A DNA stretch of 64,000 nt from Allobosea robiniae (GCF_900102525.1 NZ_FNBZ01000003.1:1-64000), one strand, 5' to 3'. Positions 4,276-54,001 are shown, numbered from the stretch's first letter. Notes: generated by a model not told the origin, from the letters alone. Translations and numbers: made by a program.

Positions 4276-4279
4276 CCTA

Positions 4280-10844: not shown

Positions 10845-11813
10845 ATGGATGTTTCCGGGCTCGAAGCCTTCATCCAGATCGCCGAATTCGGAAGCTTTCG
10901 TCGTGCAGCCGAGGCAATGCGGCTGTCGCAAACCGCCTTGAGCCACCGCATTCGCAAGCTTGAGGAAGATGTCGGCGTCACGCTGTTTCAGCGCACTACA
11001 CGCTCTCTCTCTCTGACGAGAGCGGGACAAGAGTTCTTCCCTGAGGCACGAGACACGCTGTTTCGACTGAGCACTCTATACGAGAACCTGAAACGCCAGG
11101 GCCGACAGGCGCAGCAAAAGGTTTCGGTTGGTTGTCTCGGTTCGCTCGGCGAGCATTTCCTGCCCGGGGTTCTGAGAGAATTCCGGCAGCGCTATCCGCA
11201 GGTCTCGATCACCGTTTTTGACGAGCCCGCGGCGGCTTTGCGCGAGCGTGTCTCCTCTGGCGAGGCACAGTTCGCCTTGACCATCCTAGGCGCGCAGCTC
11301 TGGACTCAGAAATCCCGCGCGCTGTTCGAGGAGGACTTCGTCGCCGCTGTGCCAATCGGGCACCCGCTCGCGGAGCGCGCGGAACTGAACTGGGCTGATC
11401 TCGTCGGCTATCCGCTGGCCCGCGTCGCCACAACGACAAGCCACGGGTTCATGCTTAGCGAAAGCCTCGGCACTTTCGGAGAGCGGTTGGATTGGGCCTA
11501 TGAGGTGCAGCGCGTCAACATGGCGGTCTGTTTCGTTGCAAACGGCATCGCCGTCACGGTGCTGCCTCGCCTGGCGATCGCGTCAGCGCCCGGCATTCGT
11601 ATTTTGCCGATCACGGCTCCGCAAATTCGACGCACTGTTGGCATTATCGCGCGCGACGGCGTTTCCCTCCCAAGACCAGCCCTGAATCTGCAGCGCATGC
11701 TGCTGCACGCGATCTCCCGACACTCCAAAGGAGCCAGCAACGATCTGCCCGCTCAGACCTCCGGCCGGGATGCGGGGACGACAACAGTCAATTCATCCCT
11801 GTCGAGCGAATAG
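10845..11813 (+). CDS. LysR-type transcriptional regulator
   Basis: A 322-residue LysR protein starting MDVSGLEAFIQIAEFGSFRR, with the N-terminal helix-turn-helix (AAEAMRLSQTALSHRIRKLE) and a type-2 periplasmic fold domain. It is read away from the FAD/ABC importer operon, which it probably controls. Its last 20 codons overlap, tail to tail, the end of the EthD-like gene on the other strand (11753-11813); the C-terminal GASNDLPAQTSGRDAG part is outside the conserved LysR core. Confidence 0.85.
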   Translation: MDVSGLEAFIQIAEFGSFRRAAEAMRLSQTALSHRIRKLEEDVGVTLFQRTTRSLSLTRAGQEFFPEARDTLFRLSTLYENLKRQGRQAQQKVSVGCLGSLGEHFLPGVLREFRQRYPQVSITVFDEPAAALRERVSSGEAQFALTILGAQLWTQKSRALFEEDFVAAVPIGHPLAERAELNWADLVGYPLARVATTTSHGFMLSESLGTFGERLDWAYEVQRVNMAVCFVANGIAVTVLPRLAIASAPGIRILPITAPQIRRTVGIIARDGVSLPRPALNLQRMLLHAISRHSKGASNDLPAQTSGRDAGTTTVNSSLSSE

Positions 11814-12451
11814 GCGAGATCGTAACCTGTCCACGCCGCGCGAGCCGGGGCAAGGCCCTCCGCGTCGAGCGCAGGATCGATCATGCCGGCAATTTCATCG
11901 AGCCGGCTTCTATCATGGCATTCGATCATGATCGCGCCGCTGTCGGCATAGGACGCACCGCCTGCGGATGGCACCGTAAATGGCACCGGGGCGACCAACG
12001 GATCCTTCTTCAGGACATGGATCGCTGTCGCCGCAGTCTCACGAAGCGCGCGCCCGGCAAGCTCTTCCCAGGCACCTGCAGGGACCGAGGCCTCATCGAA
12101 GGTTGTTGCCATCAAGGCGCTTCCGATGCCTCCGCCCTGACTTGACACTGCAAGATGGCCGACGCGAAAGAAACCGCGAAAGGACGGCCGCATGCTTTGC
12201 GACCATGGCGTTGGGTTTTCCAGCAGCGCCCGATACGGCGCGCTGCTGAGCACCGCGTTGCTTTCCAGTTCGTAGAGCGTCAAGAATTCTGGAAGTGGCC
12301 CATTGCCGCGGTGATAGCGCCGTGCGCGCATCATGCCGGGCACGGCCAGCCGTTCTGGAACATGCTCGCGCGTGTGCCATAGGTTGTATTCGTCCCGCCG
12401 GCGTGGATCGACGCCGTTCCACAGCGAGAGCAGTCCTTGCCCCTTCAGCAT
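11753..12451 (-). CDS. EthD-like dimeric alpha/beta-barrel protein, copy 1
   Basis: A 232-residue protein of unknown function. Near the N-terminus it has LWHTREHVPERLAVPGMMRA, a motif shared with the proteins at 13529-14218 and 26706-27458 and, degenerate, at 21722-22438. The pattern W-H-x-x-E-H-x-P-E-R-L-x-x-P-G resembles the EthD/ferredoxin-like fold of small cofactor-independent enzymes. A second half ends in YDLAYSLDRDE, also recurring in the relatives. It is the last gene of the hydroxyquinol operon, 2 bases after a Gfo/Idh/MocA gene. A role as decarboxylase, dehydratase or cyclase is possible, but nothing in the sequence decides it. Confidence 0.6.
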   Translation of the reverse strand: MLKGQGLLSLWNGVDPRRRDEYNLWHTREHVPERLAVPGMMRARRYHRGNGPLPEFLTLYELESNAVLSSAPYRALLENPTPWSQSMRPSFRGFFRVGHLAVSSQGGGIGSALMATTFDEASVPAGAWEELAGRALRETAATAIHVLKKDPLVAPVPFTVPSAGGASYADSGAIMIECHDRSRLDEIAGMIDPALDAEGLAPARAAWTGYDLAYSLDRDELTVVVPASRPEV

Positions 12452-12453
12452 TG

Positions 12454-13482
12454 CTACTCCGAGAGTTCTACCCACGCGCCGGTTTGCGCGCTCGCGCGAA
12501 TGGCGTCGAGCGAGTCCAGGATGTCGAGTGATTCCGCCTCGCTTGCTCCCGTCCATTGCACTGGGCCATTGCTCAAGCTTGCGGCAAAGGACTCCGCCTC
12601 GCGCAAGAAGCCATTGCCGTCCGGCACATCCAGCGGTTCGAAGGCCGCACCGAAAGCGATGCCGCGCTTAACCTGCAGGATCGCCGGCCCGCTGGCTGGC
12701 GGATGGTTCAGGAAGTTTGTCTCGATTACGCCCCCGTCCCCGCCAATCAAGGCATGGCGGTGGTAGCCCGTCTCGAAGGAACAGGACAACTGGGCGAGCA
12801 ATCCGCTCGGGAAGGCAATATTTGCGATTGTGGTGAGGTCGACACCATTTGCCGCAAAGCTTGCCGTCGCTTGAACCCGTGCTGGTCTCTCGCCGGCTAC
12901 GATGCGTATCAGGCTCATGGCGTAACTGCCTGCATCGAGCAAGGCGCCGCCGCCCAGCGAAGGACTAAGCCGGATATTGGCGGGATCGACCGAGGTTATG
13001 CCGAAGGACGATCGGATCAATTTGACCTTGCCGATTGCACCGGTGGCGATCATCTTGCGCAACTTTGCCGTCTGGACCTGAGCGAGATAGGGATAAGCCT
13101 CGACGAGCGGAACGTTGTTGGCCCTGGCCGCGGCAAACATGCGGCGGCCTTCTTTGCCTGTGACCGCTAAAGGCTTCTCGCACAGTATCGGTTTTCCGCT
13201 TTCGGCCGCTCGAATGGCCCACTCGGCGTGCAGGCTGTTGGGAAGCGGGATATAGACCGCATCGATTTCTCGATCTGCGAGCAGGGCTTCGTAGGAGCCA
13301 TGAAAGCGCGGGACGCCCGTCTCCCGGGCGAAAGCCTCCGCCTTTGCGGGATCACGGCTCGCGACCGCCGCAACGGTGAGCATTTTCGAAGGAGCCACCC
13401 CCGCGATGAAATTGCGCGCGATGTTGGCCGCGCCCAGTATTCCAATCTGAAGAGGCCGATTTCTCATGTTGAGCCTATCCAT
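12454..13482 (-). CDS. Gfo/Idh/MocA-family dehydrogenase, copy 1
   Basis: A 342-residue NAD(P)-dependent dehydrogenase. The N-terminal Rossmann fold has GILGAANIARNFI; the EKP motif (CEKPLAVTGKEG) carries the conserved Lys. The C-terminal domain begins near residue 125. The family oxidises polyols, sugars, inositols and trans-dihydrodiols of aromatics. The start MDRLNMRNRP is taken because GAGAGG lies 7 bases upstream. Within the hydroxyquinol operon it could oxidise a cyclitol or dihydrodiol-like precursor; this is inference. Confidence 0.82.
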   Translation of the reverse strand: MDRLNMRNRPLQIGILGAANIARNFIAGVAPSKMLTVAAVASRDPAKAEAFARETGVPRFHGSYEALLADREIDAVYIPLPNSLHAEWAIRAAESGKPILCEKPLAVTGKEGRRMFAAARANNVPLVEAYPYLAQVQTAKLRKMIATGAIGKVKLIRSSFGITSVDPANIRLSPSLGGGALLDAGSYAMSLIRIVAGERPARVQATASFAANGVDLTTIANIAFPSGLLAQLSCSFETGYHRHALIGGDGGVIETNFLNHPPASGPAILQVKRGIAFGAAFEPLDVPDGNGFLREAESFAASLSNGPVQWTGASEAESLDILDSLDAIRASAQTGAWVELSE

Positions 13483-13528: not shown

Positions 13529-14218
13529 TTAGCCCCGGTTCATGGAATCCAGAGCAAACGCGAGATCATAGACTGCGACATCGTCCGGTGCGGGCCGGAG
13601 CTGGTGTCTCGCCAAGGCGGCGGAGATTTGCGGCAGCGCGGCCTCCAGTTCCAAGCGGCCGATGCCGTCGACGAGTATCGCTGCGTCGAACAAACCGTCC
13701 TGCGTCGTCCCTCTCAGCGCTGTCTCCCTCGTTTTCGCGCCAGTGCTCTCCGGGCGCGCCAAGCCGATGTGAACGCTGCTGATCCCGTCGAGACCGAGGA
13801 TCTGCTCGGCGACAGGGCGTGCCGCGCGGCGGAAGCCGTCCTCGCCGATCGAATCGAAGCTGATCCGGTAAGTCGCCATCGCGCCCCCAAGACCTTCTCC
13901 AAGAGAGACAAGCACCTCGCAACCACAGCGGATGAAATTATAAAAGGCCGGCTGGATTTGCTGCGACCACGGCGTCGGGTTGTTGAGCCGCTCAAGATAG
14001 GCAGGCGATCCGAAAACATCGAGATTCGGCCCCTCGTAAAGCGTCCAATAGCGATGCCTGTCCCGCTTCCAGTCCACCCCGCGCCGTCCACGCATGAAGC
14101 CCGGAATGCTAAGGCGCTCGGGCATGTGCTCGCGGGTATGCCAGCGATTGTACTCAACTTCGGACTCTGCACGGATATCGTGCCAGATGGCGACGAAGGC
14201 ATTACCTTTGATGGGCAT
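13529..14218 (-). CDS. EthD-like dimeric alpha/beta-barrel protein, copy 2
   Basis: A 229-residue paralogue of the protein at 11753-12451. It has YNRWHTREHMPERLSIPGFM near residue 22 and a matching C-terminal YDLAFALDSMN. A shared internal segment, NNPTPWSQQIQPAF, corresponds to ENPTPWSQSMRPSF in copy 1. No signal peptide or membrane segment. It lies between the dioxygenase and the Gfo/Idh/MocA gene in one operon, so a step around hydroxyquinol formation is a reasonable guess. Confidence 0.62.
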   Translation of the reverse strand: MPIKGNAFVAIWHDIRAESEVEYNRWHTREHMPERLSIPGFMRGRRGVDWKRDRHRYWTLYEGPNLDVFGSPAYLERLNNPTPWSQQIQPAFYNFIRCGCEVLVSLGEGLGGAMATYRISFDSIGEDGFRRAARPVAEQILGLDGISSVHIGLARPESTGAKTRETALRGTTQDGLFDAAILVDGIGRLELEAALPQISAALARHQLRPAPDDVAVYDLAFALDSMNRG

Positions 14219-14244: not shown

Positions 14245-15123
14245 TCAGGCCGCCGAAGCGGAGAGCCGCTTCAAACGAAAATCGTAGCGCAGGCTGTGAA
14301 ATTCGCGGCCCATAATGCGCCCGTCTGGAGCCTCTCCCGGGAAATGCCGCACGAATTCCTGGATCAGTGAATCCTTGACGCCGAATACGACGTCAGAGTC
14401 GAGATACTCGTCTCCCGCCACGAAGACATGTGTCACAAGAGTGTCGTGGCCTTCCGCGTGAATCATGAAATGAACATGCGCCGGCCGATAGGGATGGCGG
14501 CCCTGCGCATCGAGCATCTGCCCGACTGGGCCATCATGCGGGATCGGATAGGCGGCTGGTTTGATGGTCCAGAAGTGAAACCTGCCTTGCTCATCGGTGA
14601 ACAGGCGCGCGCGCATCGAAAGCCCGCCCAATTCCTCCATCTGCTGCACGTCGTAATAGCCATCCTCATCGGAGTGCCAGACATCGACTGCCGCGCCGGC
14701 TAGCGGTGCGCCGTCAGTAGACGAGACGGTTCCGGAAACGAACAGAGGCTGGCCCTTCATTCCGTCCGAAATGTCCGACCCCAGGGGAAACACCGCTGGA
14801 TCTTGCACATAGAATGGCCCCAGCACTGTCGTATCGGTCGCACCAGCGGTGCCACGGTGATTAATGGCGTCCACCAGCATCGAAACGCCGAGCGTATCTG
14901 ACAGCAGGATGAACTCCTGACGCTTGTCGTCGCACATGTGCCCGGTTCGGGTGAGAAAGCCGATTGCCGCCTCCCACTCACCCATGCTGGGCTCGACCTC
15001 CTTCACGAAGGCGTGGAGATGTCGTACCAGTGCCTGGCTGATCTGTTGCGTGCGGCCGTCCGAGGCGTTGGCCACACGATCGAGCACTGCCATTGTGATC
15101 GAATTCTCGTCGAAGTTTCGCAC
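14245..15123 (-). CDS. hydroxyquinol 1,2-dioxygenase (intradiol)
   Basis: A 292-residue intradiol ring-cleavage dioxygenase with the N-terminal helical dimerisation domain of catechol/hydroxyquinol dioxygenases. The Fe(III) ligands are predicted at Tyr157 (DEDGYYDVQ), Tyr192 (AYPIPHDGPVG), His216 and His218 (YRPAHVHFMI). The GPVG segment and the adjacent maleylacetate reductase favour 1,2,4-trihydroxybenzene (product maleylacetate) over catechol. It starts with GTG at 15123 behind GGGAGGA. No aromatic hydroxylase that would make hydroxyquinol is seen in the operon. Confidence 0.88.
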   Translation of the reverse strand: MRNFDENSITMAVLDRVANASDGRTQQISQALVRHLHAFVKEVEPSMGEWEAAIGFLTRTGHMCDDKRQEFILLSDTLGVSMLVDAINHRGTAGATDTTVLGPFYVQDPAVFPLGSDISDGMKGQPLFVSGTVSSTDGAPLAGAAVDVWHSDEDGYYDVQQMEELGGLSMRARLFTDEQGRFHFWTIKPAAYPIPHDGPVGQMLDAQGRHPYRPAHVHFMIHAEGHDTLVTHVFVAGDEYLDSDVVFGVKDSLIQEFVRHFPGEAPDGRIMGREFHSLRYDFRLKRLSASAA

Positions 15124-15205: not shown

Positions 15206-16273
15206 CTAAAAATCAGCTCGAGGCGCTTCCCCAGCGTAGGCGCGGCGGATCAGCTCATAAACCGCATCGCGCTCTACGGGGCGCGGGTTCCAGTATGGAT
15301 TGGCGGTAGCAAGATCCGCGGCGCGCGATATGCCGGTCTCCGGCATTCCAATCTCCGCTAAGGATCGCTTCAATTTCAAGCGCTCCAACAACGCGGACAG
15401 CCCCGACAGAGCATCCTTCGAACCGAGGGCGGAGGCGATGCACGCCATAGCACGCGGCGCTGCCTGCGCGTTGTAGGACAGTGCATGAGGTAGAACGATG
15501 GTATGGGTTTCGGCATGAGGCAGATCGAAACTGCCTCCTAGCGTGTGGCACAGCTTGTGGTGCAGCGCCATTCCCACGGCGCCCAGACATAGGCCGCAAA
15601 GCCAGGCGCCATAAAGTGCATCCGCCCGCGCCGGGCCGTTTCGCGGTTCATCGACAATACGGGGCAGTGCTGCGGCGAGGGCTCGAATTCCCTCCTGAGC
15701 GATCAGTTCGATGACGGGATTGCCGTCTCGCGCGTAAAGCGCCTCTGAGGCATGGGCGATAGCATTAATGCCGGAAACGGACGATATCGACGGTGGCAGG
15801 CTTAGCGTCAGATCAACATCGTAGATCACCGTTCCAGGCAGGACTTTCGCGGTGGTCTGTGTTCGCTTCAGGCCGCCCTCCGTCTCGCCGAGGATCGGCG
15901 TCATTTCCGATCCCGCATAGGTGGTCGGCAACACGATCTGGGGCAATCCCGTGCGCAGCGCGATCGCCTTCCCGAGTCCTGTGGTCGAGCCGCCGCCGAC
16001 TGCGACAACGCCGTCAGCCTTCGAGGCGGCGATCACGGCGAGTGCTTCCTCGGTGACCGCGACAGGCGTGTGCATAACGGCACCCGAAAAGAGACCGGTG
16101 GCCCGGCTCCCGAGAATCTCCGCGATACTGCGCCCGACGGCCTCCTGATCGGGCGTTGACAGTACGAGCAGCCGCTCCAGACCTAGGCGTTCCGCCTCAT
16201 CCGGCAAACGCTGTCTCGTGCCGCTCCCAAATAGGATCCTGGCCGGCGCCGCATTGTAGACGAACTCGCGCAT
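15206..16273 (-). CDS. maleylacetate reductase
   Basis: A 355-residue member of the iron-containing alcohol dehydrogenase family, subfamily maleylacetate reductase. It reduces maleylacetate to 3-oxoadipate with NAD(P)H. The coenzyme loop is GGGSTTGLGKAIA. The region SGINAIAHASEALYA has Asn where metal-dependent members have Asp, as usual for maleylacetate reductases, and HHKLCHTLGG carries the conserved His. The ATG at 16273 follows GGGAGG. Paired with the downstream dioxygenase it gives a complete route from hydroxyquinol to 3-oxoadipate, the substrate of the pcaI/pcaF enzymes at the left edge. Confidence 0.9.
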   Translation of the reverse strand: MREFVYNAAPARILFGSGTRQRLPDEAERLGLERLLVLSTPDQEAVGRSIAEILGSRATGLFSGAVMHTPVAVTEEALAVIAASKADGVVAVGGGSTTGLGKAIALRTGLPQIVLPTTYAGSEMTPILGETEGGLKRTQTTAKVLPGTVIYDVDLTLSLPPSISSVSGINAIAHASEALYARDGNPVIELIAQEGIRALAAALPRIVDEPRNGPARADALYGAWLCGLCLGAVGMALHHKLCHTLGGSFDLPHAETHTIVLPHALSYNAQAAPRAMACIASALGSKDALSGLSALLERLKLKRSLAEIGMPETGISRAADLATANPYWNPRPVERDAVYELIRRAYAGEAPRADF

Positions 16274-16289: not shown

Positions 16290-16913
16290 TCATTCAGGCG
16301 GGCGCAGAGCCATTTCGAGCGGCTTGCCTTCAAGCCAGGCCCGCCCACGCCGGTAGAGATCTTCGACGAGCGGCCCGGTCAGGCCGGGCATGTCCGGCTT
16401 GACCTTGAACCCCAGACCGGACTGCAGATAGGCGAGGTGGCGATAGCCGATTGGGAAACTTTCGAGCCGCTGCCTATCGAGCGCTGGAGCCTGAGAGGGA
16501 TCCACGGGGTCGATCCGATCCTTCTCGTAGATCGGCTGCCGCAGCACCACGCCCCATCGCCCCTGGCGCTTCTCCAAAAAATCGTAGAATCGTCCGGTGC
16601 AAACGACATCGCAGATCACTCCATCCACGCTGGCGCGCTGGTTGATCGTCATTTTCGTCTGTGCAATCGCGCGGTTTTCCGCGATGTCGATTCCCATTCC
16701 GCCGAGGAAGTGAAGGATGCTCACACCCTTCTCGAAGCCCTCGCGGCTGACCTTTATGAACTCGTCAGCCGTTCCCTGAAACCAGGTTGCCATCATCCGT
16801 CCGTCGTCGTGCCAAACGGTGCGGAATCGCTCCCAATCCCCGGCGTCACGCCAAACAGCCCAGTTCTCCACCAACTCACGGATAAGCAGGCGTTCCTTCC
16901 AGTCGTCGCTCAT
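16290..16913 (-). CDS. SnoaL/NTF2-like protein
   Basis: A 207-residue protein with an NTF2-like cone fold: LLIRELVENWAVWRDAGDWE followed by WHDDGRMMATWFQGTADEF is typical of SnoaL-like PF13577 proteins. Such folds include LinA-type dehydrochlorinases, scytalone-like dehydratases, isomerases and dioxygenase small subunits. It is longer than the usual 130-160 residues through a C-terminal extension. As first gene of the hydroxyquinol operon it may act as a dehydratase or isomerase that helps aromatise the ring; no large dioxygenase subunit is present. The function is unproven. Confidence 0.65.
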   Translation of the reverse strand: MSDDWKERLLIRELVENWAVWRDAGDWERFRTVWHDDGRMMATWFQGTADEFIKVSREGFEKGVSILHFLGGMGIDIAENRAIAQTKMTINQRASVDGVICDVVCTGRFYDFLEKRQGRWGVVLRQPIYEKDRIDPVDPSQAPALDRQRLESFPIGYRHLAYLQSGLGFKVKPDMPGLTGPLVEDLYRRGRAWLEGKPLEMALRPPE

Positions 16914-17091: not shown

Positions 17092-17862
17092 ATGCCACCT
17101 GCCGAGCTCGGCTCTGTAAAGTCCGCGATGCGGGTCCTCGACCTCTTCGAATATCTCCGCCGGTGGAATGCCGCGCAGACCCACACTCAAATTGCGGCTC
17201 AACTCGGGATCCCTAAAAGTAGCCTCACGCAGCTGCTCAAAACTTTGGTTAACCGCGGCTATCTCGAATATGACCCGATCGGAAAGGGGTATTTCCTCGG
17301 GCCGGCCGTGGTTGCCTTGGGCCAACGGAGTGCCGAGACACGCGACTTGGTCGAGGTCGCTGAAAACGTGCTCGCGGAAATCGCTAGAACGACGAGCGAG
17401 ACTTGCGCCCTGAATGTTCTCAAAGGAGACCATTCCGAAGTCATGGCGACGGCGAACGGCACCCATCGGTTGCATTATTCAATGCGCGTAGGCGACATGG
17501 CGCCGCTCTATGCGACATCGGGAGGAAAGGCTCTGCTTGCCTACCTGCCCGACGAGATGCGCCAGGATTATCTCTCTCGGGTACATTTCGAGGCGATTAC
17601 GCCTCGGACTATCGGAAGCGTGGCGGCGCTTGATAACGAGATTGCGGAGATCAGACGCGGCGGCGTCGCCTTCGTTACCGAAGAATTCACGCCGGGGATC
17701 GCGGGAATGGCCCTGCCGATCCTTAGCCGCTCAGGGTTTCCGCTTGCGGCCATCAACATCGCACTCCCGGTAGCGAGGTACGATGCGGAATTGAAGCAGC
17801 GCTGCCTCACAGCCTTGGAAATGGCCGTCAAGCTGATCAGACAACGTGCCGGAGTGGATTGA
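17092..17862 (+). CDS. IclR-family transcriptional regulator, copy 1
   Basis: A 256-residue IclR regulator. An N-terminal winged helix (AQTHTQIAAQLGIPKSSLTQ, then LLKTLVNRGYLEY) is followed by the GAF-like effector domain with LYATSGGKALLAYL. The start at 17092 has only a poor ribosome-binding site. It diverges from the hydroxyquinol operon and converges with an AroE-like gene; both promoters share a motif (16938 and 18730), suggesting it controls both. IclR regulators of aromatic catabolism such as PcaR/PcaU bind pathway acids. Confidence 0.87.
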   Translation: MPPAELGSVKSAMRVLDLFEYLRRWNAAQTHTQIAAQLGIPKSSLTQLLKTLVNRGYLEYDPIGKGYFLGPAVVALGQRSAETRDLVEVAENVLAEIARTTSETCALNVLKGDHSEVMATANGTHRLHYSMRVGDMAPLYATSGGKALLAYLPDEMRQDYLSRVHFEAITPRTIGSVAALDNEIAEIRRGGVAFVTEEFTPGIAGMALPILSRSGFPLAAINIALPVARYDAELKQRCLTALEMAVKLIRQRAGVD

Positions 17863-17888: not shown

Positions 17889-18689
17889 TCAGATCGCCTT
17901 GCCTTCGAGAAAGTCGAGCATCAATTCTCGCTGCGCCAGGAACATTCCGACGCCAGTCTGCGTGCGACAACCCATGCTTCGCGCGATTTCCAGCAAGGGA
18001 GATACCTCCGGCGCTGTGATCACGTCGCCGACGAAAATGCCGGATTTCAGCTTGTCGACCTCGACTGGCAGCGGATCGCCCGCCTTCATTCCCATCGGCG
18101 TCGCGTTGGCGACGATGTCGAACCCTGATGGATCCATCGAGCCCGCGCGAACCTTCCCGGGATGGACCTTGAGCAGCTTGGCGATCAGTCCATCGCGCCG
18201 AGCCGTGTCGCTATCGTGAATAGCCAGCTCAGCGACGCCTGAATCAAGCATTTGCAAGGCGATGGCGCTGCCTGCTCCGCCGGCGCCGATAAGCAGCGCG
18301 CGCTTCCCTTCCGGCTGGCAGCCCGTCTGCATCATGGCGCGGACAAAACCAAGCCCGTCGCTCATGTCTCCATACCAGCCTCCGTCTGGATGTCGTCTGA
18401 CGATATTCGTCGATTCAAGGAAATCCGCGCGCTCTGAAACGACTCTGCAATGCCGCCGGGCAGCGAATTTATGCGGGACGGTTGCGATGATGCCATCGAC
18501 GTTACGAATGGGCCCCAACGCATCGATGAAACGGTCGACGTCCTCCGGAAGAACGTGAATAGGGATTACGACGGCATTCCGGCCGCGTTCGGCGAAACCG
18601 CGCGTCATGCCGCCAGGTGCCTTCACCTGGGCGATAGGATGACCAATGATCACGAATACCCTTGTCTCGCCGCTGAGCATGTCCAGCAT
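17889..18689 (-). CDS. AroE-like dehydrogenase, divergent subfamily, copy 1
   Basis: A 266-residue shikimate-dehydrogenase homologue. The catalytic pair is kept: Lys74 (TVPHKF) and Asp111 (GDMSDG). The NADP loop is GAGGAGSAI. Where AroE has the shikimate-carboxylate Ser-x-Ser (HSxSP), this protein has AQVKAP (residues 20-25), and the Asn of N-V-T is lost. The start at 18689 follows AGGAG. It should oxidise a hydroxyl on an alicyclic ring, probably not shikimate itself. It shares these changes with the proteins at 35148 and 42794. Confidence 0.78.
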   Translation of the reverse strand: MLDMLSGETRVFVIIGHPIAQVKAPGGMTRGFAERGRNAVVIPIHVLPEDVDRFIDALGPIRNVDGIIATVPHKFAARRHCRVVSERADFLESTNIVRRHPDGGWYGDMSDGLGFVRAMMQTGCQPEGKRALLIGAGGAGSAIALQMLDSGVAELAIHDSDTARRDGLIAKLLKVHPGKVRAGSMDPSGFDIVANATPMGMKAGDPLPVEVDKLKSGIFVGDVITAPEVSPLLEIARSMGCRTQTGVGMFLAQRELMLDFLEGKAI

Positions 18690-18802: not shown

Positions 18803-19603
18803 ATGCTGTCCCTTGCACATCTCACATTCATGCATGCAGGTCCGCTGGAGCTGATCTCGCTCGCCGAAGCAGGCGGTTTCGACGCCGTGGGGCTTCGTCT
18901 GATCGACCCCGCACCCGAGGGACGCTTCTTCCCGATCGTCACGGATGCCGACCTGCGCCGTGAGGTCAAAGCATCCTTGCAAACGAGCGGGCTCACGCTG
19001 CTGGATGTCGAGGCCGTCTGGCTATGGCCACAGACACAACCACAGCTCCTGCGGCCGGTGCTCGAAACCGGAGCGGAGTTAGGGGCTCGCAATCTGCTGG
19101 TCGCCGGCAATGATCCGGACAGGAACAGGATGACGGATCGGCTGGCTGAATGCTGCTCGATGGCGCGCGAGTACGGCATGGGCGTCGGGTTCGAGTTCAT
19201 TCCTTATACGGCGCTGAATTCGCTGCTGTATGCGAGTTCGATCCTGAAGGATGCCGGGCAGGACAATGCTGGCCTTCTCGTCGACGCTCTGCATCTCAAT
19301 CGCTCCGGAGGGGACGCTTCCGATCTTGCCGCTATAGACCCTGAGCTCGTTGCCTATGGTCATCTCTGTGATGCACCCGCTGCGTCTCCGGGCGAAGACG
19401 GCTTGCGCACCGAGGCGCGTGAAGCCAGGCTCTATCCCGGTGACGGTGGCCTTTCGCTTTCGGCCTTCCTGAGCGCTTTGCCCCCAGGAAGACCGGTCGC
19501 GCTGGAAGCTCCGAGTCGGGCCTATGGTGACAACGACCTTGAGAAGGCACGGCGCGCCGGTGCTGCGTGCAGGGCCTTGCTCGCAAGCGTCGGACGTTCC
19601 TGA
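18803..19603 (+). CDS. xylose-isomerase-like TIM-barrel protein, copy 1
   Basis: A 266-residue AP-endonuclease-2/sugar-isomerase-type TIM barrel. Likely metal ligands are Glu131 (GFEFIPY), Asp161 (LLVDALHLNRSG), His187 (YGHLCDAP) and Glu235 (ALEAPSR). The Glu-Asp-His-Glu set is typical of epimerases and isomerases; the two relatives here have Gln at the third position. It diverges from the AroE-like gene, with 113 bases between starts. It may isomerise or dehydrate a keto-polyol ring. The substrate is unknown. Confidence 0.72.
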   Translation: MLSLAHLTFMHAGPLELISLAEAGGFDAVGLRLIDPAPEGRFFPIVTDADLRREVKASLQTSGLTLLDVEAVWLWPQTQPQLLRPVLETGAELGARNLLVAGNDPDRNRMTDRLAECCSMAREYGMGVGFEFIPYTALNSLLYASSILKDAGQDNAGLLVDALHLNRSGGDASDLAAIDPELVAYGHLCDAPAASPGEDGLRTEAREARLYPGDGGLSLSAFLSALPPGRPVALEAPSRAYGDNDLEKARRAGAACRALLASVGRS

Positions 19604-19664: not shown

Positions 19665-20528
19665 TCAACCGGCTGCGGCATTGCCTGCTGCTCGCCGGGC
19701 GGCGAAGCGAACGATGTGTTCGGCGGCGCTGGCCACCTTTTCCTTCAAGGTCAGGGCCGCCTCGCTCGCCACCGGCGTTTCGATCGCCATCTGTGGCCCG
19801 TTCGGCAGGACATCCAGCAATGCGTTCAATGGGATGACGCCGTCACCCAGATGCAGGCGTCCTCCCCGCGCCTCGGTGGGAAGATCTTCAAGCCTTGGCA
19901 CCTGCGGACCAGCGTCGCACAGCTGAATATAGGCGATGCGCGATGCCGGGACCGCGGCGATCTGCTCGGGAGTTCCTCCGGTGCGATGGAAATGCAGCAC
20001 GTCGAAAATGATGCCGGCGTTGCCGACACCGGCCGCGTCGATCAGTGCTAGCGCAGCGCCGAGGTCGGGGATGTCACGATAGCGCATGAACTCGACCCCG
20101 ACATGCAGCCCGAAGCGCTTGGCCTGTTCGCAAAGCTGCGAGAACAAGTCGATCCGCTCGGCCTCGGACAGAAAAGTGTCGTTGCCAACGACCTCCGTTC
20201 CGATCGACGAGATATGCGTGGCTCCGAGCTCGGCGCCTGTTTCGAGCGCCGGGATGAAGCTCGCCGCATTGACGCCGGGCCGTAACACGAAGGCCTCGAC
20301 ATCAAACACCTTGACGCCGGTCGCTTTCGAGGCGGCCTTGACGGCCCGGATCGTCTCGGGCCGCTGGATGATTTCATGGCTCAACGGCTTGTTCATCGCC
20401 GTGCGCAGCACCAGCCCGGCCGCGCCGAACCCGCTTTCGCCTGCTGCCTCAATGAGTGCGACGGGATCGCCACCTCCCACCGTGAGGTTGGCGATGGAGA
20501 AATCATGCAGGTTCAGTGCGTGAGCCAT
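19665..20528 (-). CDS. xylose-isomerase-like TIM-barrel protein, copy 2
   Basis: A 287-residue protein of the same fold. The ligand set reads Glu (GVEFMRYRD), Asp (IIFDVLHFHRTGG), Gln (AYIQLCDAG) and Glu (AIETPVAS). Glu-Asp-Gln-Glu is, as far as I recall, the set used by 3-dehydroshikimate dehydratases AsbF and QuiC, so a dehydratase acting on a ring ketone is plausible. It ends the minus-strand operon with the iron/polyamine-type ABC transporter. A gap of 61 bases separates it from the convergent TIM-barrel gene, and no convincing terminator was found. Confidence 0.72.
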   Translation of the reverse strand: MAHALNLHDFSIANLTVGGGDPVALIEAAGESGFGAAGLVLRTAMNKPLSHEIIQRPETIRAVKAASKATGVKVFDVEAFVLRPGVNAASFIPALETGAELGATHISSIGTEVVGNDTFLSEAERIDLFSQLCEQAKRFGLHVGVEFMRYRDIPDLGAALALIDAAGVGNAGIIFDVLHFHRTGGTPEQIAAVPASRIAYIQLCDAGPQVPRLEDLPTEARGGRLHLGDGVIPLNALLDVLPNGPQMAIETPVASEAALTLKEKVASAAEHIVRFAARRAAGNAAAG

Positions 20529-21668: not shown

Positions 21669-21721
21669 CTCATTCCTCCCTTTGGTTTCTGACGGCCGAT
21701 TGGTTCGTTGCCGTTGCGGCG

Positions 21722-22438: not shown

Positions 22439-22469
22439 GGCCTCGTATCCTCGAGCGGAAGCACGGAGA

Positions 22470-23540: not shown

Positions 23541-23556
23541 CCGAATGGATCCGATC

Positions 23557-25170: not shown

Positions 25171-25295
25171 CGCCAGTAGAAGCGCAAGCCAGCCAAGCCT
25201 CTGCGCCAGCCGAGGTGACCAGGAGCGATGAGGCGGCTCGGCCGCGACAGGGAGTGCGCTCTGAGAGATGGCTTCGTTTCCTGTACGGGGTTCAG

Positions 25296-39309: not shown

Positions 39310-39400
39310 CTCCCATCCGACACGTCAATTCCGCGCCGCATGAATGCGGCGCCTTCCCCGCGCGGCAGGCAACGTGTGCCGGCGCGGGAGGGACCATGCC

Positions 39401-42786: not shown

Positions 42787-42793
42787 GCGAACG

Positions 42794-43621: not shown

Positions 43622-43664
43622 CGGACGCGCACCACCCGGTTCTGGGAATGCCGTGGAGCACGCC

Positions 43665-44276: not shown

Positions 44277-44325
44277 CGCCGTCGGATCAAGCTGGCAGCC
44301 CAGGCATGAGACAAGGAACCCTCCC

Positions 44326-45114: not shown

Positions 45115-45197
45115 CTACCATCGGTCAGCCTGAACGACCGACAGGAAGTGCCCCGCAGTTCACCAGGGGCAGGGCGGATATGCAGGATCGTTCTTAG

Positions 45198-45221
45198 ACT
45201 GGAATATCATTCCAATATAAT
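45198..45221 (+). promoter_or_regulatory. promoter with IclR-type box 4 in the spacer
   Basis: ACTGGA-ATATCA-TTCCAA (45198-45215) contains the perfect repeat TGGAAT-ATC-ATTCCA. It is followed at once by TATAAT (45216-45221), a consensus -10 element; TTAGAC (45194-45199), 16 bases upstream of it, is a weak -35. An operator lying in the spacer should block RNA polymerase, so repression is expected. The downstream gene starts at 45248 behind GGGAGG. Confidence 0.65.
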
Positions 45222-45247
45222 GTTCTACAAAATCTGGGAGGAACATC

Positions 45248-46315
45248 ATGGCGCGCGCAAGGATTGGGATCATCGGGCTCGGGGTGATCGGCAAATCCCA
45301 TCTTTCCGTGTTGCAGGAGACGGAAAACGCCGACGTCGCCGCTATCTCCGACCCTACGCAAGCAGCCCGCGACCACGCCGCCGGTCGCAACGTAAAGGCC
45401 TATGACGATTATCGCACGATGATCGAAACGGAGCGCCTCGATGGCGTCGTCGTCGCGACGCCGAACGACCAGCATGTACCTGTCGCGCTCGATTGCATCT
45501 CTCGCGACATCGCGGTCCTGGTCGAGAAGCCGATTGCGGAAAGCGTCGAGGCCGCGCGCCGGCTCTGCGAGGCGGCAGAGGCCAAGAACATCCCGATCCT
45601 CGTCGGCCACCATCGCCGACACAATCCCGCTGTCAGGGCAGTGCGCAAAGCCATTGCAGATGGAGTTATCGGCAAGCCCGCCATCGCGACCGTGATCTAT
45701 ACGCAGCTCAAGCCGGACAGCTACTTCAACCTTGGCTGGCGGCGCGACAAGGCCAGCGGCGGTCCGATCCTTATCAACCTTATTCACGAGATCGACCTGA
45801 TCCGCTTTGTCTTCGGCGAAATCGAGAGCCTGCAGGCATCAACCTCCTCGGCGGTCCGTGGCTTCCCGGTAGAGGACACGGCTGGCGTCCTGCTGCGTTT
45901 CCGCAACGGCGCGCTCGGCACGATCAGCCTCTCCGACACGGCTGCCTCGCCCTTCAGCTGGGATCTGACTTCCGGCGAATTCGACCAGATGGCCGGCACC
46001 ACCGACAAGCTGAAGCGTCAGCAAGTCTCCTCGCACATTTTTGCGGGCTCGGAAGGTTCGCTCACTTTGCCGGATGTCCGACACTTCAGCTATCGCGGCG
46101 ATACCGAGCCGGGGTGGTTGAGCGAATTGAGTGAGGACAGGCTCGCCCTGACCCCCGAAAGCGCCTATCGCCGGCAGGCCCGACATTTCGCGGCCGTTTC
46201 CCTGAGGGAGGAAGAACCCGTTATCAACGGCCGCGATGGCCTGCGCACGCTGGAGGCCACGCTCGCGGTCAAGGCGGCCTCCGAAAGCGGCGGCACCGTC
46301 CGGCTTTCGGCCTGA
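45248..46315 (+). CDS. Gfo/Idh/MocA-family dehydrogenase, copy 3
   Basis: A 355-residue NAD(P)-dependent dehydrogenase: GIIGLGVIGKSHLSVLQ, VEKPIAESVEAA with the conserved Lys, and GHHRRHNPAVRAVRKAI, a segment frequent in inositol- and scyllo-inositol-type members. INLIHEIDLIRFVFGE provides the conserved His-Asp pattern of the active site. It opens the operon with two CoA-transferases and a MaoC hydratase. A cyclitol or hydroxylated-ring dehydrogenase is plausible. Confidence 0.82.
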   Translation: MARARIGIIGLGVIGKSHLSVLQETENADVAAISDPTQAARDHAAGRNVKAYDDYRTMIETERLDGVVVATPNDQHVPVALDCISRDIAVLVEKPIAESVEAARRLCEAAEAKNIPILVGHHRRHNPAVRAVRKAIADGVIGKPAIATVIYTQLKPDSYFNLGWRRDKASGGPILINLIHEIDLIRFVFGEIESLQASTSSAVRGFPVEDTAGVLLRFRNGALGTISLSDTAASPFSWDLTSGEFDQMAGTTDKLKRQQVSSHIFAGSEGSLTLPDVRHFSYRGDTEPGWLSELSEDRLALTPESAYRRQARHFAAVSLREEEPVINGRDGLRTLEATLAVKAASESGGTVRLSA

Positions 46316-52425: not shown

Positions 52426-53214
52426 TCAGTACAGGCCAGGCGTCGCGCCGCCATCGACGGCGATCGCCACGCCCTGAATGTGGCGCGCGTCCTCGCCGCA
52501 GAGGAACAGGGCCAGTGCGGCGATGTCCTCGGGGCGCCCCAGCCGCCGCAAGCCCTCCCGGGCGATCAATTCTTCGCGAATCTCCGCAGGACTTTTCCCT
52601 GCTACCCTGGCGCGCTGCTCAAAGAGCTGCTCGACCCTCTCCGTCTCGGTCATGCCCGGATAGATTGCGTTGACGTTTACGCCCGCGCGCTTGCCCAGCC
52701 CCGACAGCCCCTTGGTGAAGTTCGCCATCGCCGCGTTGACAGACCCGCCTATTAGGAAGCCGGGATCAGGGGTCCGCGCCGCGCCGCCGATAATGTTGAG
52801 GACATGCCCGTGCCGCTCGGAGAGGGATGGCCAGAACAACCGGCACAGCCTGACACAGGCGAAAAACTTGAGATCGAAACCATCCTGCCAGTCATTGTCG
52901 GGGAGAGTGAGGAAATCTCCCGCCTTCGTCGCACCCGCAGAGTTGACGAGAATGTCGCAGCCGCCAAAGCGCGACATCACGCCCTCGAACACGGCCTTGC
53001 ACCCCGCTTCCGAGCGCAAATCCACCGCCACCGTCGCCGGCCGCCGGCCATGGCTGTCCGCGATGGCTGCCGCTGCCGTCGCGAGCGTCTTGTCGGAGGA
53101 CGCGGCGAGGACCAGCTCGGCCCCGGCAGCGGCAAAAGCCTGCCCGATTCCGAAGCCGATGCCCCGGCTTCCGCCAGATATGACGACCACCTTTCCGCTG
53201 AGAGGCGACATCAT
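52426..53214 (-). CDS. atypical SDR-family protein lacking the catalytic Tyr
   Basis: A 262-residue SDR-fold protein. The cofactor loop (ISGGSRGIGFGIG) and NSAG are present. At the expected Tyr-x-x-x-Lys position the sequence reads FLIGGSVNAAMANFTK: there is no Tyr and the residue four positions on is not Lys. It may use another acid/base residue, or bind cofactor without classical SDR chemistry. The ATG at 53214 has AAGGAG upstream. It follows the hydratase gene in the operon. Confidence 0.75.
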   Translation of the reverse strand: MMSPLSGKVVVISGGSRGIGFGIGQAFAAAGAELVLAASSDKTLATAAAAIADSHGRRPATVAVDLRSEAGCKAVFEGVMSRFGGCDILVNSAGATKAGDFLTLPDNDWQDGFDLKFFACVRLCRLFWPSLSERHGHVLNIIGGAARTPDPGFLIGGSVNAAMANFTKGLSGLGKRAGVNVNAIYPGMTETERVEQLFEQRARVAGKSPAEIREELIAREGLRRLGRPEDIAALALFLCGEDARHIQGVAIAVDGGATPGLY

Positions 53215-53224
53215 GCTACTCTCC

Positions 53225-54001
53225 TTAGACAAGCGTCACACGAAGCTGACAAATGCCCCCGAAGCGCGCGTCAAAAGGCTGCCCGCGTCGGAGCTGAAGT
53301 GGCACGCAGAGCGAACCGGTTGATAGATAATCGCCCGCCGAGAGCGCGACCCCGCGCCGCAAAAGGCCGTCGATCATCTCGGCCAGCACCGTCACGACAT
53401 CCCCGCGCTGGGAACCGCGATAAAGATCGACAGGCGCCCCCGGCATACCGGCCTCAATCGATAGGCCGTTGAGATCCAGTGTCTGCCAATCGGCGACATC
53501 TTCCCCGAATATGAAAGCGCCTCCGCTGCCGTTGTCGGCTATCGCCAGTAAGGTCTTGGCATCGGTGCTTCGGATGTCGATCCGGCTACCGGCGACTTCA
53601 ATCCCTGGGGCGAGATTGACCGCAGAGGCGACCTCATCCCGCGAATAAGGCGTGCCGCGCGCAGGCAGGGCGTGTTTAAGGCGGAAGGCATATTCTAGCT
53701 CGGCGTTGTATCCGGCATAGAGCGCATGGGGCAGTTCAGCCGCACCGACGAAAATGCGATCCCGCATGATCCGGCCCGGGATCGGCCCATCGTGACCCTC
53801 GGCTATCTGAACCGCGCGCAGGGCCGCGCCGATCTTCCAGCCGCCGACACCCGTGCCTAGGAGCTCAGCCATCCTGTCTTGGACCCAATAGGCCTCATTG
53901 CGGCTTTGCGGACGATTGAGGCCCGTCGGCTCGTCAATTCGGGTTCCAGCCTCCCAAGCCAGCGCCAACGAACTGGCCAGGCGCTCAAGTTCAGCCCGCA
54001 T
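53225..54001 (-). CDS. 2-keto-4-pentenoate hydratase-like protein (MhpD family)
   Basis: A 258-residue protein of the FAH/MhpD group. Motifs include GVGGWKIGAALRAVQ, metal-binding Glu residues in NAELEYAFRL and PGIEVAGSR, and SAGDYLSTGSLCVPL near the C-terminus. Relatives hydrate 2-hydroxypenta-2,4-dienoates or decarboxylate 4-oxalocrotonate after meta cleavage; no extradiol dioxygenase is seen here. The start at 54001 is set by similarity, since the open frame runs 85 codons further upstream through the promoter region. It is the first gene of its operon. Confidence 0.8.
   Translation of the reverse strand: MRAELERLASSLALAWEAGTRIDEPTGLNRPQSRNEAYWVQDRMAELLGTGVGGWKIGAALRAVQIAEGHDGPIPGRIMRDRIFVGAAELPHALYAGYNAELEYAFRLKHALPARGTPYSRDEVASAVNLAPGIEVAGSRIDIRSTDAKTLLAIADNGSGGAFIFGEDVADWQTLDLNGLSIEAGMPGAPVDLYRGSQRGDVVTVLAEMIDGLLRRGVALSAGDYLSTGSLCVPLQLRRGQPFDARFGGICQLRVTLV

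Follow-up and report, generated by a model that had tools for sequence, protein, structure and literature searches.

Gene content of the locus

The window, i.e., the whole stretch of 64,000 nucleotides that was analysed, comes from Allobosea robiniae (GCF_900102525.1, NZ_FNBZ01000003.1:1-64000). Genes were called with a codon-usage script, their start positions being approximate, and were assigned to families with Pfam and NCBIfam. Pfam covered 38 of the 40 proteins g13-g52, all except g39 and g40, which were assigned from the permease and ATP-binding/permease annotations of their tblastn relatives; g08 and g09, outside the family scan, were named from position and tblastn. The following features can be found:

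6..4181, -, protocatechuate branch and 3-oxoadipyl-CoA thiolase (NCBIfam over cut-off for pcaF, G, H, C and D)
6-188, -, 5' part of pcaI, a fragment cut by the contig end, score under cut-off
236-1444, -, pcaF
1501-2127, -, pcaG
2127-2870, -, pcaH
3002-3361, -, pcaC
3387-4181, -, pcaD
4280..5311, +, PcaQ regulator (TIGR02424, 367 bits, cut-off 304)
5362..11813, mixed, left part of the hydroxyquinol module: g07 SDR (-), g08-g10 SsuABC-type ABC transporter (-), g11 PF12831 FAD oxidoreductase (-), g12 LysR (+)
11753..12451, -, g13, EthD-like protein, predicted tandem alpha+beta barrel (by alignment to the g15 family)
12454..13482, -, g14, Gfo/Idh/MocA dehydrogenase (PF01408)
13529..14218, -, g15, EthD-like protein, predicted tandem alpha+beta barrel (structure model)
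14245..15123, -, g16, hydroxyquinol 1,2-dioxygenase (PF00775 and PF04444)
15206..16273, -, g17, maleylacetate reductase (3jzd, 3w5s and 3hl0 at 399-412 bits)
16290..16913, -, g18, putative AGDC1-like cofactor-free decarboxylase (Pfam call SnoaL_4; profile, residues, model)
17092..17862, +, g19, IclR regulator of the hydroxyquinol module (Pfam)
17889..18689, -, g20, AroE-like dehydrogenase (PF08501; AroE model 120 bits, cut-off 200)
18803..19603, +, g21, TIM barrel, distantly QuiC-like, putative aromatising dehydratase (PF01261)
19665..20528, -, g22, TIM-barrel protein (Pfam and profile)
20604..28254, -, second module: g23 SBP, g24 EthD-like, g25-g26 ABC transporter, g27 Gfo/Idh, g28 SDR
28251..29984, -, g29, ChcC2/KstD-like flavoprotein dehydrogenase (PRK06134, 918 bits, over cut-off)
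30018..32377, -, g30 TIM barrel, g31 epimerase-type SDR, g32 NIPSNAP (Pfam; conserved cassette)
32612..36808, +, g33 ChcC/KstD-like flavoprotein, g34 enoyl-CoA hydratase, g35 AroE-like, g36 canonical AroE (Pfam/NCBIfam)
36852..37697, -, g37, IclR regulator (Pfam)
37954..46315, +, right half of the conserved cassette: g38-g40 LIV-type ABC transporter, g41 AroE-like, g42 EthD, g43 SDR, g44 Gfo/Idh

These assignments bear out the gene list of a first-pass annotation of the same DNA (hydroxyquinol dioxygenase, maleylacetate reductase, AroE-like, TIM-barrel, Gfo/Idh, flavoprotein, SnoaL-like and EthD/NIPSNAP proteins), whose members are present according to Pfam, NCBIfam or structure-chain matches. 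Three AroE-like proteins (g20, g35, g41) occur together with one canonical AroE (g36), which alone passes the AroE cut-off, as well as three TIM barrels (g21, g22, g30), three Gfo/Idh/MocA dehydrogenases (g14, g27, g44), two ChcC/KstD-like flavoproteins (g29, g33) and the SnoaL_4 protein g18. Five proteins are of the EthD/NIPSNAP type, namely g32 (NIPSNAP), g42 (EthD) and g13, g15 and g24, the last three having zero Pfam or NCBIfam matches and being assigned by motif and the g15 model. The remark that no aromatic hydroxylase is recognised at the locus agrees with the scan, no such family being matched among the scanned proteins (38 of the 40 from g13 to g52). Nearly full-length PF01494 hydroxylases are present on other contigs of the same genome. 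Both pcaI (partial) and pcaF lie at the window edge as had been noted, to which can be added the protocatechuate branch pcaD-C-H-G with PcaQ (6-5311). Relatives of the AroE-like, TIM, flavoprotein, NIPSNAP, g18, hydroxyquinol dioxygenase and maleylacetate reductase families were found in 0 of 19 control regions at 80 bits, so that this collection of genes exceeds chance; what the controls did contain were widespread genes of the ABC and SDR sort and, in one case, a short EthD-like match of 70-80 bits.

Regarding the dehydrogenases, g20, g35 and g41 share 51-55% identity with one another as against 26-30% with the canonical g36. The three do not reach the AroE cut-offs, and the position of Ser14, which we take to be the carboxylate residue of AroE (shikimate dehydrogenase), is Val in each of them, while Ser14 is present in g36; Lys65 and Asp102, presumably the catalytic residues, are present in g20, g35 and g41. 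For the TIM barrel g21, a profile search (A3) places Lmo2234 and IolI first, then QuiC1 (5hmq, E 6e-16) and AsbF (5e-4). The likeness to QuiC is one of profile only, g21, g22 and g30 scoring 27-31 bits against a family cut-off of 1200 bits. Relatives of g22 with 54-57% identity can be found in Bosea vaviloviae and Microvirga. Two QuiC-like clusters are present elsewhere in the genome. Against the ChcC2 model (cut-off 900 bits), g29 and g33 score 543 and 426 bits, and each passes one unnamed FAD-dependent oxidoreductase NCBIfam model; g29 also matches 7p18 at 311 bits.

Ring-cleavage enzymes and the decarboxylase candidate g18

Strong homology assigns g16 by family to the hydroxyquinol 1,2-dioxygenases. 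It has both the catechol-dioxygenase N domain (PF04444) and the intradiol catalytic domain (PF00775), and among proteins of solved structure it comes closest to a 6-chlorohydroxyquinol and a hydroxyquinol dioxygenase (295 and 283 bits), with the best catechol dioxygenase at 135 bits. Among the 28 g18-linked dioxygenase rows listed, some of them from the same organism, Asp83 (1tmx position) is kept in all 28 and Phe108 is replaced by Leu in 19; both residues are presumed to have a functional role in hydroxyquinol dioxygenase. The adjacent g17 belongs to the Fe-ADH family, known maleylacetate reductases being its closest relatives.

Known AGDC1 substrates yield pyrogallol or catechol, not hydroxyquinol. 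The g18 profile matches the fungal decarboxylases AGDC1 and PP2 over full length (E 9e-34 and 3e-36; 30-34% identity), and its model gives a TM of 0.91 to 6w54, 0.92-0.93 to PP2 and 0.86-0.90 to the 7kd9 chains shown, the next fold being a bile-acid dehydratase (TM 0.58). Eight active-site residues reported for AGDC1/PP2 are kept (W35, R39, D40, T60, W61, H86, Y150 and Q192), and each is conserved in 80 of 80 g18-family loci, except R39 (79 of 80). In the portion of the AGDC1 study drawn on here, H86 and D40 form a dyad, W35 and W61 a clamp, R39 anchors the carboxylate, and T60, Y150 and Q192 bind hydroxyls; the potassium-binding E88 is given there as essential (PMC7862292). At the E88 position g18 carries a leucine (Leu70); across the 80 loci this residue is Leu in 79 and Gln in the other. 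For this reason g18 is labelled AGDC1-like and not a full member. The Y146 position is Arg in g18 and in 80 of 80 loci. On these data g18 is a full-length relative of AGDC1/PP2-type decarboxylases, decarboxylation itself being predicted. From the homology and the kept residues, hydroxyquinol would most likely form when a carboxylated ring loses its carboxyl group, and not from a neutral cyclitol.

Neighbourhoods in other genomes

The g18-family neighbourhoods comprise 80 loci, some of them short stretches. A hydroxyquinol dioxygenase gene lies near g18 in 22, in 20 of these within 2 kb, and is absent from the other 58 within the stretch covered. The tandem g18, maleylacetate reductase, hydroxyquinol dioxygenase occurs in 8 of the 80, and the dioxygenase immediately follows g18 in 9 further loci. 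A gentisate-dioxygenase-like gene can be found in 8 of 80, one of them also with hydroxyquinol dioxygenase, and IclR relatives in 22 of 80. At genome level, 25 of the 31 g18-bearing genomes of the order have the dioxygenase, with 7.1 expected from 79 of 347 overall, and by genus 7 of 10 (p 0.004); both counts ignore shared ancestry and genome size. Conversely, g18 is nearby in 3 of 45 loci fetched by the dioxygenase, so that the majority of these dioxygenases would appear to belong to other routes. TIM relatives occur in 9 of the 22 dioxygenase-bearing g18 loci versus 7 of the other 58 (p 0.0096), and AroE-like genes in 6 of 80, three of these with the dioxygenase. In support of the first-pass annotation, TIM-barrel, g18-type and hydroxyquinol dioxygenase genes are found together in several genera, and in some loci AroE-like, EthD-like and flavoprotein genes join them. 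A compact version is found in a Chelativorans MAG (L064), where g18 and the dioxygenase are closely surrounded by TIM, AroE-like, flavoprotein and EthD-like genes, a g07 relative (70%) is present, and AroQ and a QuiC-like gene adjoin. In Sinorhizobium and Mesorhizobium, too, AroQ is no more than 10 kb away from g18 relatives.

In the near relative Bosea sp. UNC402CLCol (L028), g07-g12 are syntenic, and g11 relatives adjoin g18 relatives in three other loci (L037, L094, L107). As judged from such synteny, the conserved hydroxyquinol module extends left to about 5.4 kb (g07-g12), beyond the earlier boundary at 11753. The L028 locus is without g14, g15 or g17; its g22 adjoins g29, g23-g28 not being found between them, and the order g22-g29-g30-g33 is uninterrupted. 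Elsewhere the second module g23-g28 is mostly conserved with g22 and g29.

The claim that the 42 kb form one pathway is not supported, the right-hand AroE-like/flavoprotein/NIPSNAP/TIM cassette being conserved on its own: hydroxyquinol dioxygenase was found in 0 of 35 loci (about 10 kb, some shortened by contig ends, one from the own genome) fetched by AroE-like genes. IclR relatives occur in 10 of 20 AroE-like loci. Co-occurrence of AroE-like genes with the dioxygenase is weak (9 of 20 AroE-like genomes, p 0.02; p 0.04 without the own genome; p 0.14 by genus), ancestry and genome size being ignored. The segment g30-g44 is best read as a module of its own, akin to the hydroxyquinol part yet separable from it and presumably acting on a similar substrate. 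Genes g48-g52 were not seen as a conserved block with g18; g50-type relatives recur near hydroxyquinol dioxygenase in a different context.

Candidate routes to hydroxyquinol

The favoured reading, held tentatively and somewhat short of an even chance, is that the genes on the left side (about 5.4-20.5 kb, and on to g29) encode an upper pathway in which a carboxylated alicyclic ring is aromatised and then decarboxylated to hydroxyquinol. A ring hydroxyl would be oxidised to a ketone by the AroE-like protein g20, by an enzyme of the Gfo/Idh or SDR type, or by both, water eliminated by the distantly QuiC-like g21 or g22, and two hydrogens removed by g29, g33 (ChcC/KstD-like) or g11, these roles being suggested by family. 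Then g18 would form hydroxyquinol by releasing CO2; its homology and its active-site residues are observed, and the substrate is a supposition. The EthD-like proteins are given no step in this scheme. Ring cleavage by g16 and reduction of maleylacetate to 3-oxoadipate by g17 are predicted by strong homology, and pcaIJ/pcaF, a known branch, would complete the route. A carboxylated, quinate-like C7 ring is suggested by the decarboxylase type of g18 and by the AroQ and QuiC-like genes that lie beside related clusters, the best guess being a C7 hydroxy acid of the quinate or shikimate kind. Of the earlier proposal that an alicyclic compound is aromatised to hydroxyquinol, the co-localised genes and the balanced oxygenase-free chemistry stand; a carboxylated ring is now preferred to the neutral cyclitol, and decarboxylation had been missed, "quinate-like" having been one option.

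In the textbook AroQ/QuiC route the tertiary hydroxyl of quinate is discarded and the carboxyl retained to give protocatechuate. An oxygenase-free conversion of quinate itself (oxidation, elimination of a single water, desaturation by a flavoprotein, AGDC1-like decarboxylation) would keep the tertiary hydroxyl and lose the carboxyl. The formula adds up exactly (C7H12O6 - H2O - 4H - CO2 = C6H6O3), and the quinate oxygens at C1, C3 and C4 match the 1,2,4 pattern of hydroxyquinol. This specific version is rather unlikely. Against the favoured reading count the changes at E88 and Y146, the pyrogallol and catechol products of AGDC1, the 58 g18 loci in which the dioxygenase is missing, the 8 with a gentisate-dioxygenase-like gene, the low numbers of g18 near the dioxygenase and of AroE-like genes near g18, and the missing g14, g15 and g17 in L028. 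The two QuiC-like clusters of the genome also speak against it, since one more way of using quinate would be superfluous if the substrate were the same. A hydroxyl group could also be supplied by an EthD-like oxygenase or by one of the PF01494 hydroxylases encoded on other contigs.

Other explanations have to be weighed against the favoured carboxylated-ring reading. The genes may form a loose catabolic island, with g18-g17-g16 as a general lower module for external or hydroxylase-made trihydroxybenzoate or hydroxyquinol, and the AroE-like, TIM and flavoprotein genes serving other substrates. This is unlikely, although it accommodates the conservation of g30-g44 apart from the dioxygenase, the PF01494 genes on other contigs and the weakly PF01494-like 471-474 aa protein in two Paraburkholderia/Caballeronia loci with g18, maleylacetate reductase and dioxygenase; the compact packing in L064, another genus, and the contiguity in L028 speak against it. 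In favour of the carboxylated-ring reading, PF01494 was matched by only 4 of 127 unassigned neighbour proteins scanned in 21 loci with g18 and dioxygenase. Quite unlikely is that g13, g15 and g24 are cofactor-free monooxygenases that introduce the third hydroxyl after g18 has released a dihydroxybenzene, hydroxyquinol then being an oxygenase product. EthD-like genes do lie near hydroxyquinol dioxygenase in Sinorhizobium (g15 relative, 61%), Chelativorans and Bosea, and the g15 model (pLDDT 88.7, tandem ferredoxin-like) best matches the anthrone oxidase-like 5f9p, the putative monooxygenases 3mcs and 3f44, with PenE further down the list. However, the 5f9p match is moderate (TM 0.63, 12% identity, rmsd 5.0), the list also has sulfur oxygenase reductase, chlorite dismutase-like, coproheme decarboxylase and chalcone isomerase entries, and an EthD-like relative occurs in only 9 of 80 g18 loci.

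Formation of gallate from a dehydroquinate/dehydroshikimate-type acid, its decarboxylation by g18 to pyrogallol and cleavage by g16 to 2-hydroxymuconate, as in the yeast Blastobotrys, is distinctly unlikely: g16 belongs to the hydroxyquinol dioxygenase family, and pyrogallol cleavage would not yield maleylacetate, whose reductase gene stands in tandem between those of g18 and the dioxygenase in 8 of 80 loci. Yet AGDC1 has higher affinity for gallate, its Y146 touching the third hydroxyl by docking (PMC7862292), the yeast enzyme is paired with an intradiol dioxygenase cleaving both pyrogallol and hydroxyquinol (PMC9204233), and plant gallate formation is tied to SDH-family enzymes. Improbable, finally, is a neutral inositol or quercitol oxidised and dehydrated to hydroxyquinol with no carboxyl involved, g18 acting as a scytalone dehydratase-like enzyme. 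The formulae allow it (inositol - 3 H2O, or quercitol - 2 H2O - 2H, = C6H6O3), inositol use typically involves Gfo/Idh enzymes and TIM barrels of the IolI/IolE kind, and the His-Asp dyad is described as common to NTF2-fold lyases such as scytalone dehydratase (PMC7862292), but g18 has the carboxylate-anchoring R39 and Trp clamp, its decarboxylase match is far above dehydratases, and in relatives the genes nearby are those of AroQ and QuiC-like proteins, not iol genes, one iolG near the Rm41 cluster aside.

Hydroxyquinol is one of the few rings cleaved by microbes, and to our knowledge its known routes all pass through aromatic hydroxylases. In the resorcinol/gamma-resorcylate route (GraF-GraDA-GraB-GraC), which likewise has a decarboxylase, hydroxyquinol dioxygenase and maleylacetate reductase, GraF is an amidohydrolase-type decarboxylase and hydroxyquinol is made by a flavin hydroxylase; neither type was recognised at this locus. 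Quinate/shikimate catabolism, in which quinate dehydrogenase, AroQ and QuiC lead to protocatechuate, shares with this locus an AroE-family dehydrogenase, pca genes and a TIM barrel distantly like QuiC, and relatives of the locus have AroQ nearby, whereas here the TIM proteins are far from QuiC (26-31 bits, cut-off 1200) and are joined by flavoproteins, a decarboxylase and hydroxyquinol dioxygenase. The desaturases ChcC1/ChcC2 of cyclohexanecarboxylate aromatisation (NF053676/NF053677) are both related to g29 and g33, which score under the cut-offs and would act on a polyhydroxylated ring. The yeast tannin route (AGDC1 and Acdo1p) similarly couples a decarboxylase to intradiol cleavage of a polyhydroxybenzene; it runs through pyrogallol and catechol, and the portion of its account cited here mentions no maleylacetate reductase and no alicyclic upper steps (PMC9204233). 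Fungal oxidative decarboxylation of protocatechuate also gives hydroxyquinol with loss of CO2, an oxidative enzyme being supposed in the section cited (PMC10406623), while such a hydroxylase was not recognised at this locus.

While g18 shares fold, dyad, Trp clamp, Arg, Thr, Tyr and Gln with AGDC1/PP2 (6w54, 7jmr), fungal gallate/protocatechuate decarboxylases, it is bacterial, differs at Glu88 and Tyr146 and is often linked to maleylacetate reductase. Cofactor-free hydroxybenzoate decarboxylases are sought for catechol, pyrogallol and muconate production, and the g18 family would extend them into bacteria. Homologues earlier proposed in lactic bacteria are reported to be seemingly without the catalytic histidine (PMC7862292), which is kept in 80 of 80 g18-family loci. 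If true, a dehydrogenase/dehydratase/decarboxylase route would change the view of how alicyclic plant acids enter aromatic metabolism in rhizobia-type bacteria.

Block structure of the locus

The window is the 64-kb start of a contig of 615 kb, from a genome of 5.28 Mb, and 60 genes were called in it. The genes named in the first-pass annotation are present and were confirmed by Pfam and NCBIfam; it gave pcaF and pcaI and made no mention of pcaDCHG and PcaQ, which lie at the left end of the window and adjoin pcaF and the start of pcaI. By comparison with annotated plasmids, the region splits into three conserved blocks:

Block 1, hydroxyquinol (HQ) module: g18 (AGDC1-like decarboxylase, formerly called SnoaL-like), g16 (HQ 1,2-dioxygenase), g17 (maleylacetate reductase), g21 (TIM barrel), g19 (IclR), g13 and g15 (EthD-like), g20 (AroE-like), and leftward g07-g12
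Block 2, g22-g29: TIM barrel, ABC transporter, EthD-like protein, SDR, flavoprotein
Block 3, g30-g44: TIM barrel, SDR, NIPSNAP, flavoprotein, AroE-like protein, IclR, transporter, Gfo/Idh protein

Clusters related to block 1, each a partial set, can be found in Sinorhizobium meliloti Rm41 (L020), S. americanum (L024) and Caballeronia sp. NK8 (L023). Bosea vaviloviae and Microvirga sp. VF16 carry most of block 2, at identities of 42-68%, and block 3 is represented, completely or partially, in Rhizobium sullae, Paracoccus, Limimaricola and Paraburkholderia. Among named loci, the closest in synteny is that of Bosea sp. UNC402CLCol (L028), at 77-95% for the HQ-module genes it has; it has no own copy of g14 (Gfo/Idh/MocA), g15, g17 or g23-g28, and block 1 runs there directly into block 3, with g22 adjoining g29. 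Three further segments are of note:

40267-42786: LIV-type permease and ATP-binding parts in one 839-residue protein
46330-49577 (g45-g47): FadX-like CoA transferase, CaiB-type CoA transferase, MaoC dehydratase
49619-54001 (g48-g52): epimerase, EamA, HIBADH-like protein, SDR, and a 2-keto-4-pentenoate hydratase-like protein far under all cut-offs

In Rhizobium sullae, Paracoccus and Paraburkholderia, the annotation of relatives of the 839-residue protein reads ATP-binding protein/permease. Relatives of all of g45-g47 lie alongside in one AroE-like locus (L145). As a block, g48-g52 was not seen near any g18 relative; g50-type relatives do recur in other HQ loci.

The whole 42 kb (11753..54001) had been read as a single pathway aromatising an alicyclic polyol to HQ. 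A single pathway is rejected by the neighbourhoods of the AroE-like and HQ-dioxygenase genes, none of the 35 loci fetched with the divergent AroE-like genes (g20, g35, g41) containing an HQ dioxygenase. Twenty of these loci (19 order genomes and the class genome G036) hold flavoprotein (11), NIPSNAP (10) and IclR (10) relatives; the other 15 (14 class loci and one from the own genome, some ten weaker class matches being left out) hold one flavoprotein and two IclR relatives. A search for co-occurrence of AroE-like, EthD-like and TIM-barrel genes in other genomes had also been proposed. TIM-barrel relatives are present in 13 of the first 20 AroE-like loci and in 16 of the 80 g18 loci (best 80 of 381), EthD-like genes in 2 of the 15 further AroE-like loci and 9 of those 80 g18 loci, and AroE-like genes in 6 of the 80.

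Conversely, the 45 loci fetched with the HQ dioxygenase (the best 30 places in the order and 15 in the class, not counting the own locus) contain g18 in three cases and a TIM relative in two, and a 3-hydroxyisobutyrate-dehydrogenase-type gene is found instead in 10 of the 30 order loci. A distinct HQ-dioxygenase context (L021, L022, L026, L148-L157) comprises a maleylacetate reductase and often such a dehydrogenase-type gene; annotated records also list a sugar-type ABC transporter, an amidohydrolase, and a Dabb or ThuA protein. In 19 control regions from the same genome sets, no TIM, flavoprotein, NIPSNAP, AroE-like, g18, HQ-dioxygenase or maleylacetate-reductase relative was found at 80 bits.

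The putative g18 decarboxylase and its association with HQ dioxygenase

Searched against the PDB, a four-member g18 profile matches over its whole length the fungal decarboxylases PP2 (E 3e-36) and AGDC1 (gallate decarboxylase, E 9e-34), reaching just one more chain, weakly. The AlphaFold model of g18 (pLDDT 92.3) superimposes on PP2 with a TM of 0.92-0.93 and on AGDC1 (6w54) with 0.91, the next fold being bile-acid 7-alpha-dehydratase at 0.58. In the AGDC1 structure paper (PMC7862292), activity is abolished by mutating W35, R39, T60, H86 or Q192; D40 is the dyad partner, W61 forms the other half of the clamp and Y150 is a hydroxyl ligand, while docking places Y146 in contact with gallate's third hydroxyl and E88, which binds potassium, is essential. 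W35, R39, T60, H86, Q192, D40, W61 and Y150 align with W18, R22, T43, H68, Q164, D23, W44 and Y129 of g18, and all eight positions are kept in 80/80 g18 loci, save R39 in 79/80 (best 80 of 381). Unlike AGDC1, the same loci have Arg at the Y146 position (80/80) and Leu at the E88 position (79/80). Judged from the alignment, g18 resembles AGDC1 in its substrate-handling residues and differs in one feature essential in AGDC1, hence the designation AGDC1-like.

Among these best 80 of 381 loci, an HQ-dioxygenase relative is found in 22, within 2 kb in 20 of them, and the tandem g18, maleylacetate reductase, HQ dioxygenase occurs in eight (L055, L064, L071, L087, L094, L096, L100, L106). TIM relatives accompany g18 in 9 of the 22 loci with HQ dioxygenase and in 7 of the 58 without it (p 0.0096). 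A gentisate-dioxygenase-like gene is present in 8/80 (one also with HQ dioxygenase), five of the eight at just 33-34% to the marker, and it is conceivable that these g18 relatives perform a hydroxyphthalate-type decarboxylation ahead of gentisate; the other 51 have neither dioxygenase within the stretch examined. The gentisate-type loci (L031, L035, L053, L054, L058, L062, L069, L072) likewise have Arg where AGDC1 has Tyr146. No g18 position differs largely between HQ-linked and other loci, so that a separating residue was rejected. A dioxygenase signature tied to the g18 context was likewise discarded, Val-Leu-Gly-Pro-Phe occurring in 18/28 rows with g18 and 42/47 without.

At the genome level, where the statistics take no account of common ancestry or genome size, g18 relatives are present in 31 and HQ dioxygenase in 79 of 347 order genomes, and both in 25 (7.1 expected; by genus 7/10, p 0.004). 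AroE-like genes coincide with g18 in nine order genomes (p 1e-5; genus level 0.0013) and with HQ dioxygenase in 9 of the 20 AroE-like genomes (p 0.02, or 0.04 with the own genome removed; 0.14 at genus level). Among 289 class genomes, 25 have AroE-like genes, 16 HQ dioxygenase and five both, including the own genome.

Origin of hydroxyquinol and candidate substrate

That no aromatic hydroxylase is recognised in the window was borne out, none being matched by family among the scanned window proteins. A scan of the genome limited to the PF01494 family found in the window just the 35-residue FAD site of g11, a PF12831 protein, and nearly full-length genes on other contigs. In 21 loci (17 of the 22 g18 and HQ loci plus four others), 136 neighbour proteins of 110 aa or more are unassigned; 127 of them were scanned, and four match PF01494, including one in L072 and two, weakly indicated, in L100 and L106. 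The scan left aside six proteins of 111-153 aa, two longer ones (292 and 1039 aa) and the AroQ of Rm41, which was scanned separately. Such a scan can miss genes since ORF calling in the fetched loci is crude (no ORF over g18 in 2/80 loci, a g18 cluster of 58, some wrong frames). Because its model resembles anthrone-oxidase-like proteins (TM 0.63), an EthD-like protein may act as a cofactor-free oxygenase; a profile search of the PDB with its sequence gave no sensible match.

Aromatisation of an alicyclic ring to HQ is partly supported by the association of AGDC1-like decarboxylase, HQ dioxygenase and TIM barrel; the remaining steps and the starting compound we infer. The formula C6H6O3 is reached from quinate by loss of H2O, 4H and CO2, from inositol by loss of three waters, and from quercitol by loss of two waters and 2H. 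Quinate would be converted to HQ by two dehydrogenations, one dehydration and one decarboxylation, for which matching enzyme types are all present in the locus. Were the intermediate a true trihydroxybenzoate, the 2,4,5-isomer would give HQ and would retain the para-hydroxyl found in AGDC1 substrates. A p-quinol acid would easily lose CO2 spontaneously, which makes a dedicated enzyme less needed and thus weakens the quinate version.

Quinate-type genes can be found beside g18 relatives, as in the following locus.

Gene order in L064 (Chelativorans MAG)
1: TRAP transporter, AroQ, QuiC-like fusion, TctC-type protein, flavoprotein (53% to g33), TIM
2: g18, maleylacetate reductase, HQ dioxygenase, EthD-like, AroE-like (62% to g35), IclR
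3: another TIM-type protein, aldo/keto reductase, tripartite transporter, SDR (70% to g07)

Here AroQ is over the cut-off of some models, the QuiC-like fusion scores 674 bits, under its 1200-bit cut-off, and the transporter and TctC names come partly from the look of the sequence. In S. meliloti Rm41 and in Mesorhizobium, AroQ likewise lies within 10 kb of g18 relatives; it is also annotated near those of S. americanum and of Sagittula, in the latter without HQ dioxygenase. These AroQ and QuiC-like genes point to a quinate/shikimate-type C7 acid as the substrate feeding the g18 decarboxylase. The own genome has two further QuiC-like clusters with divergent AroE-like genes, one with AroQ (G000:C15:268925-277657) and one with pcaHG-like genes and a FadX-like CoA transferase 70% identical to g45 (G000:C16:4343-14674), and the substrate of the window locus is therefore probably a different one or an additional one. 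The absence of Ser14 from the AroE-like proteins was rejected as a sign of a carboxyl-free substrate, as AroE-like genes beside same-genome QuiC-like genes also lack it. By profile search, the TIM proteins are distant relatives of QuiC1 and AsbF, and also of Lmo2234, IolI and ketose epimerases.

No description of this gene set was found in the open-licence PMC literature, judged from titles and the starts of abstracts among the matches listed. The most defensible new statement concerns an AGDC1-like bacterial decarboxylase with a conserved active site and Arg at the gallate-recognition position: here and in other genomes, it is statistically associated with HQ dioxygenase and, at some of its loci, also with a TIM barrel that distantly resembles QuiC.
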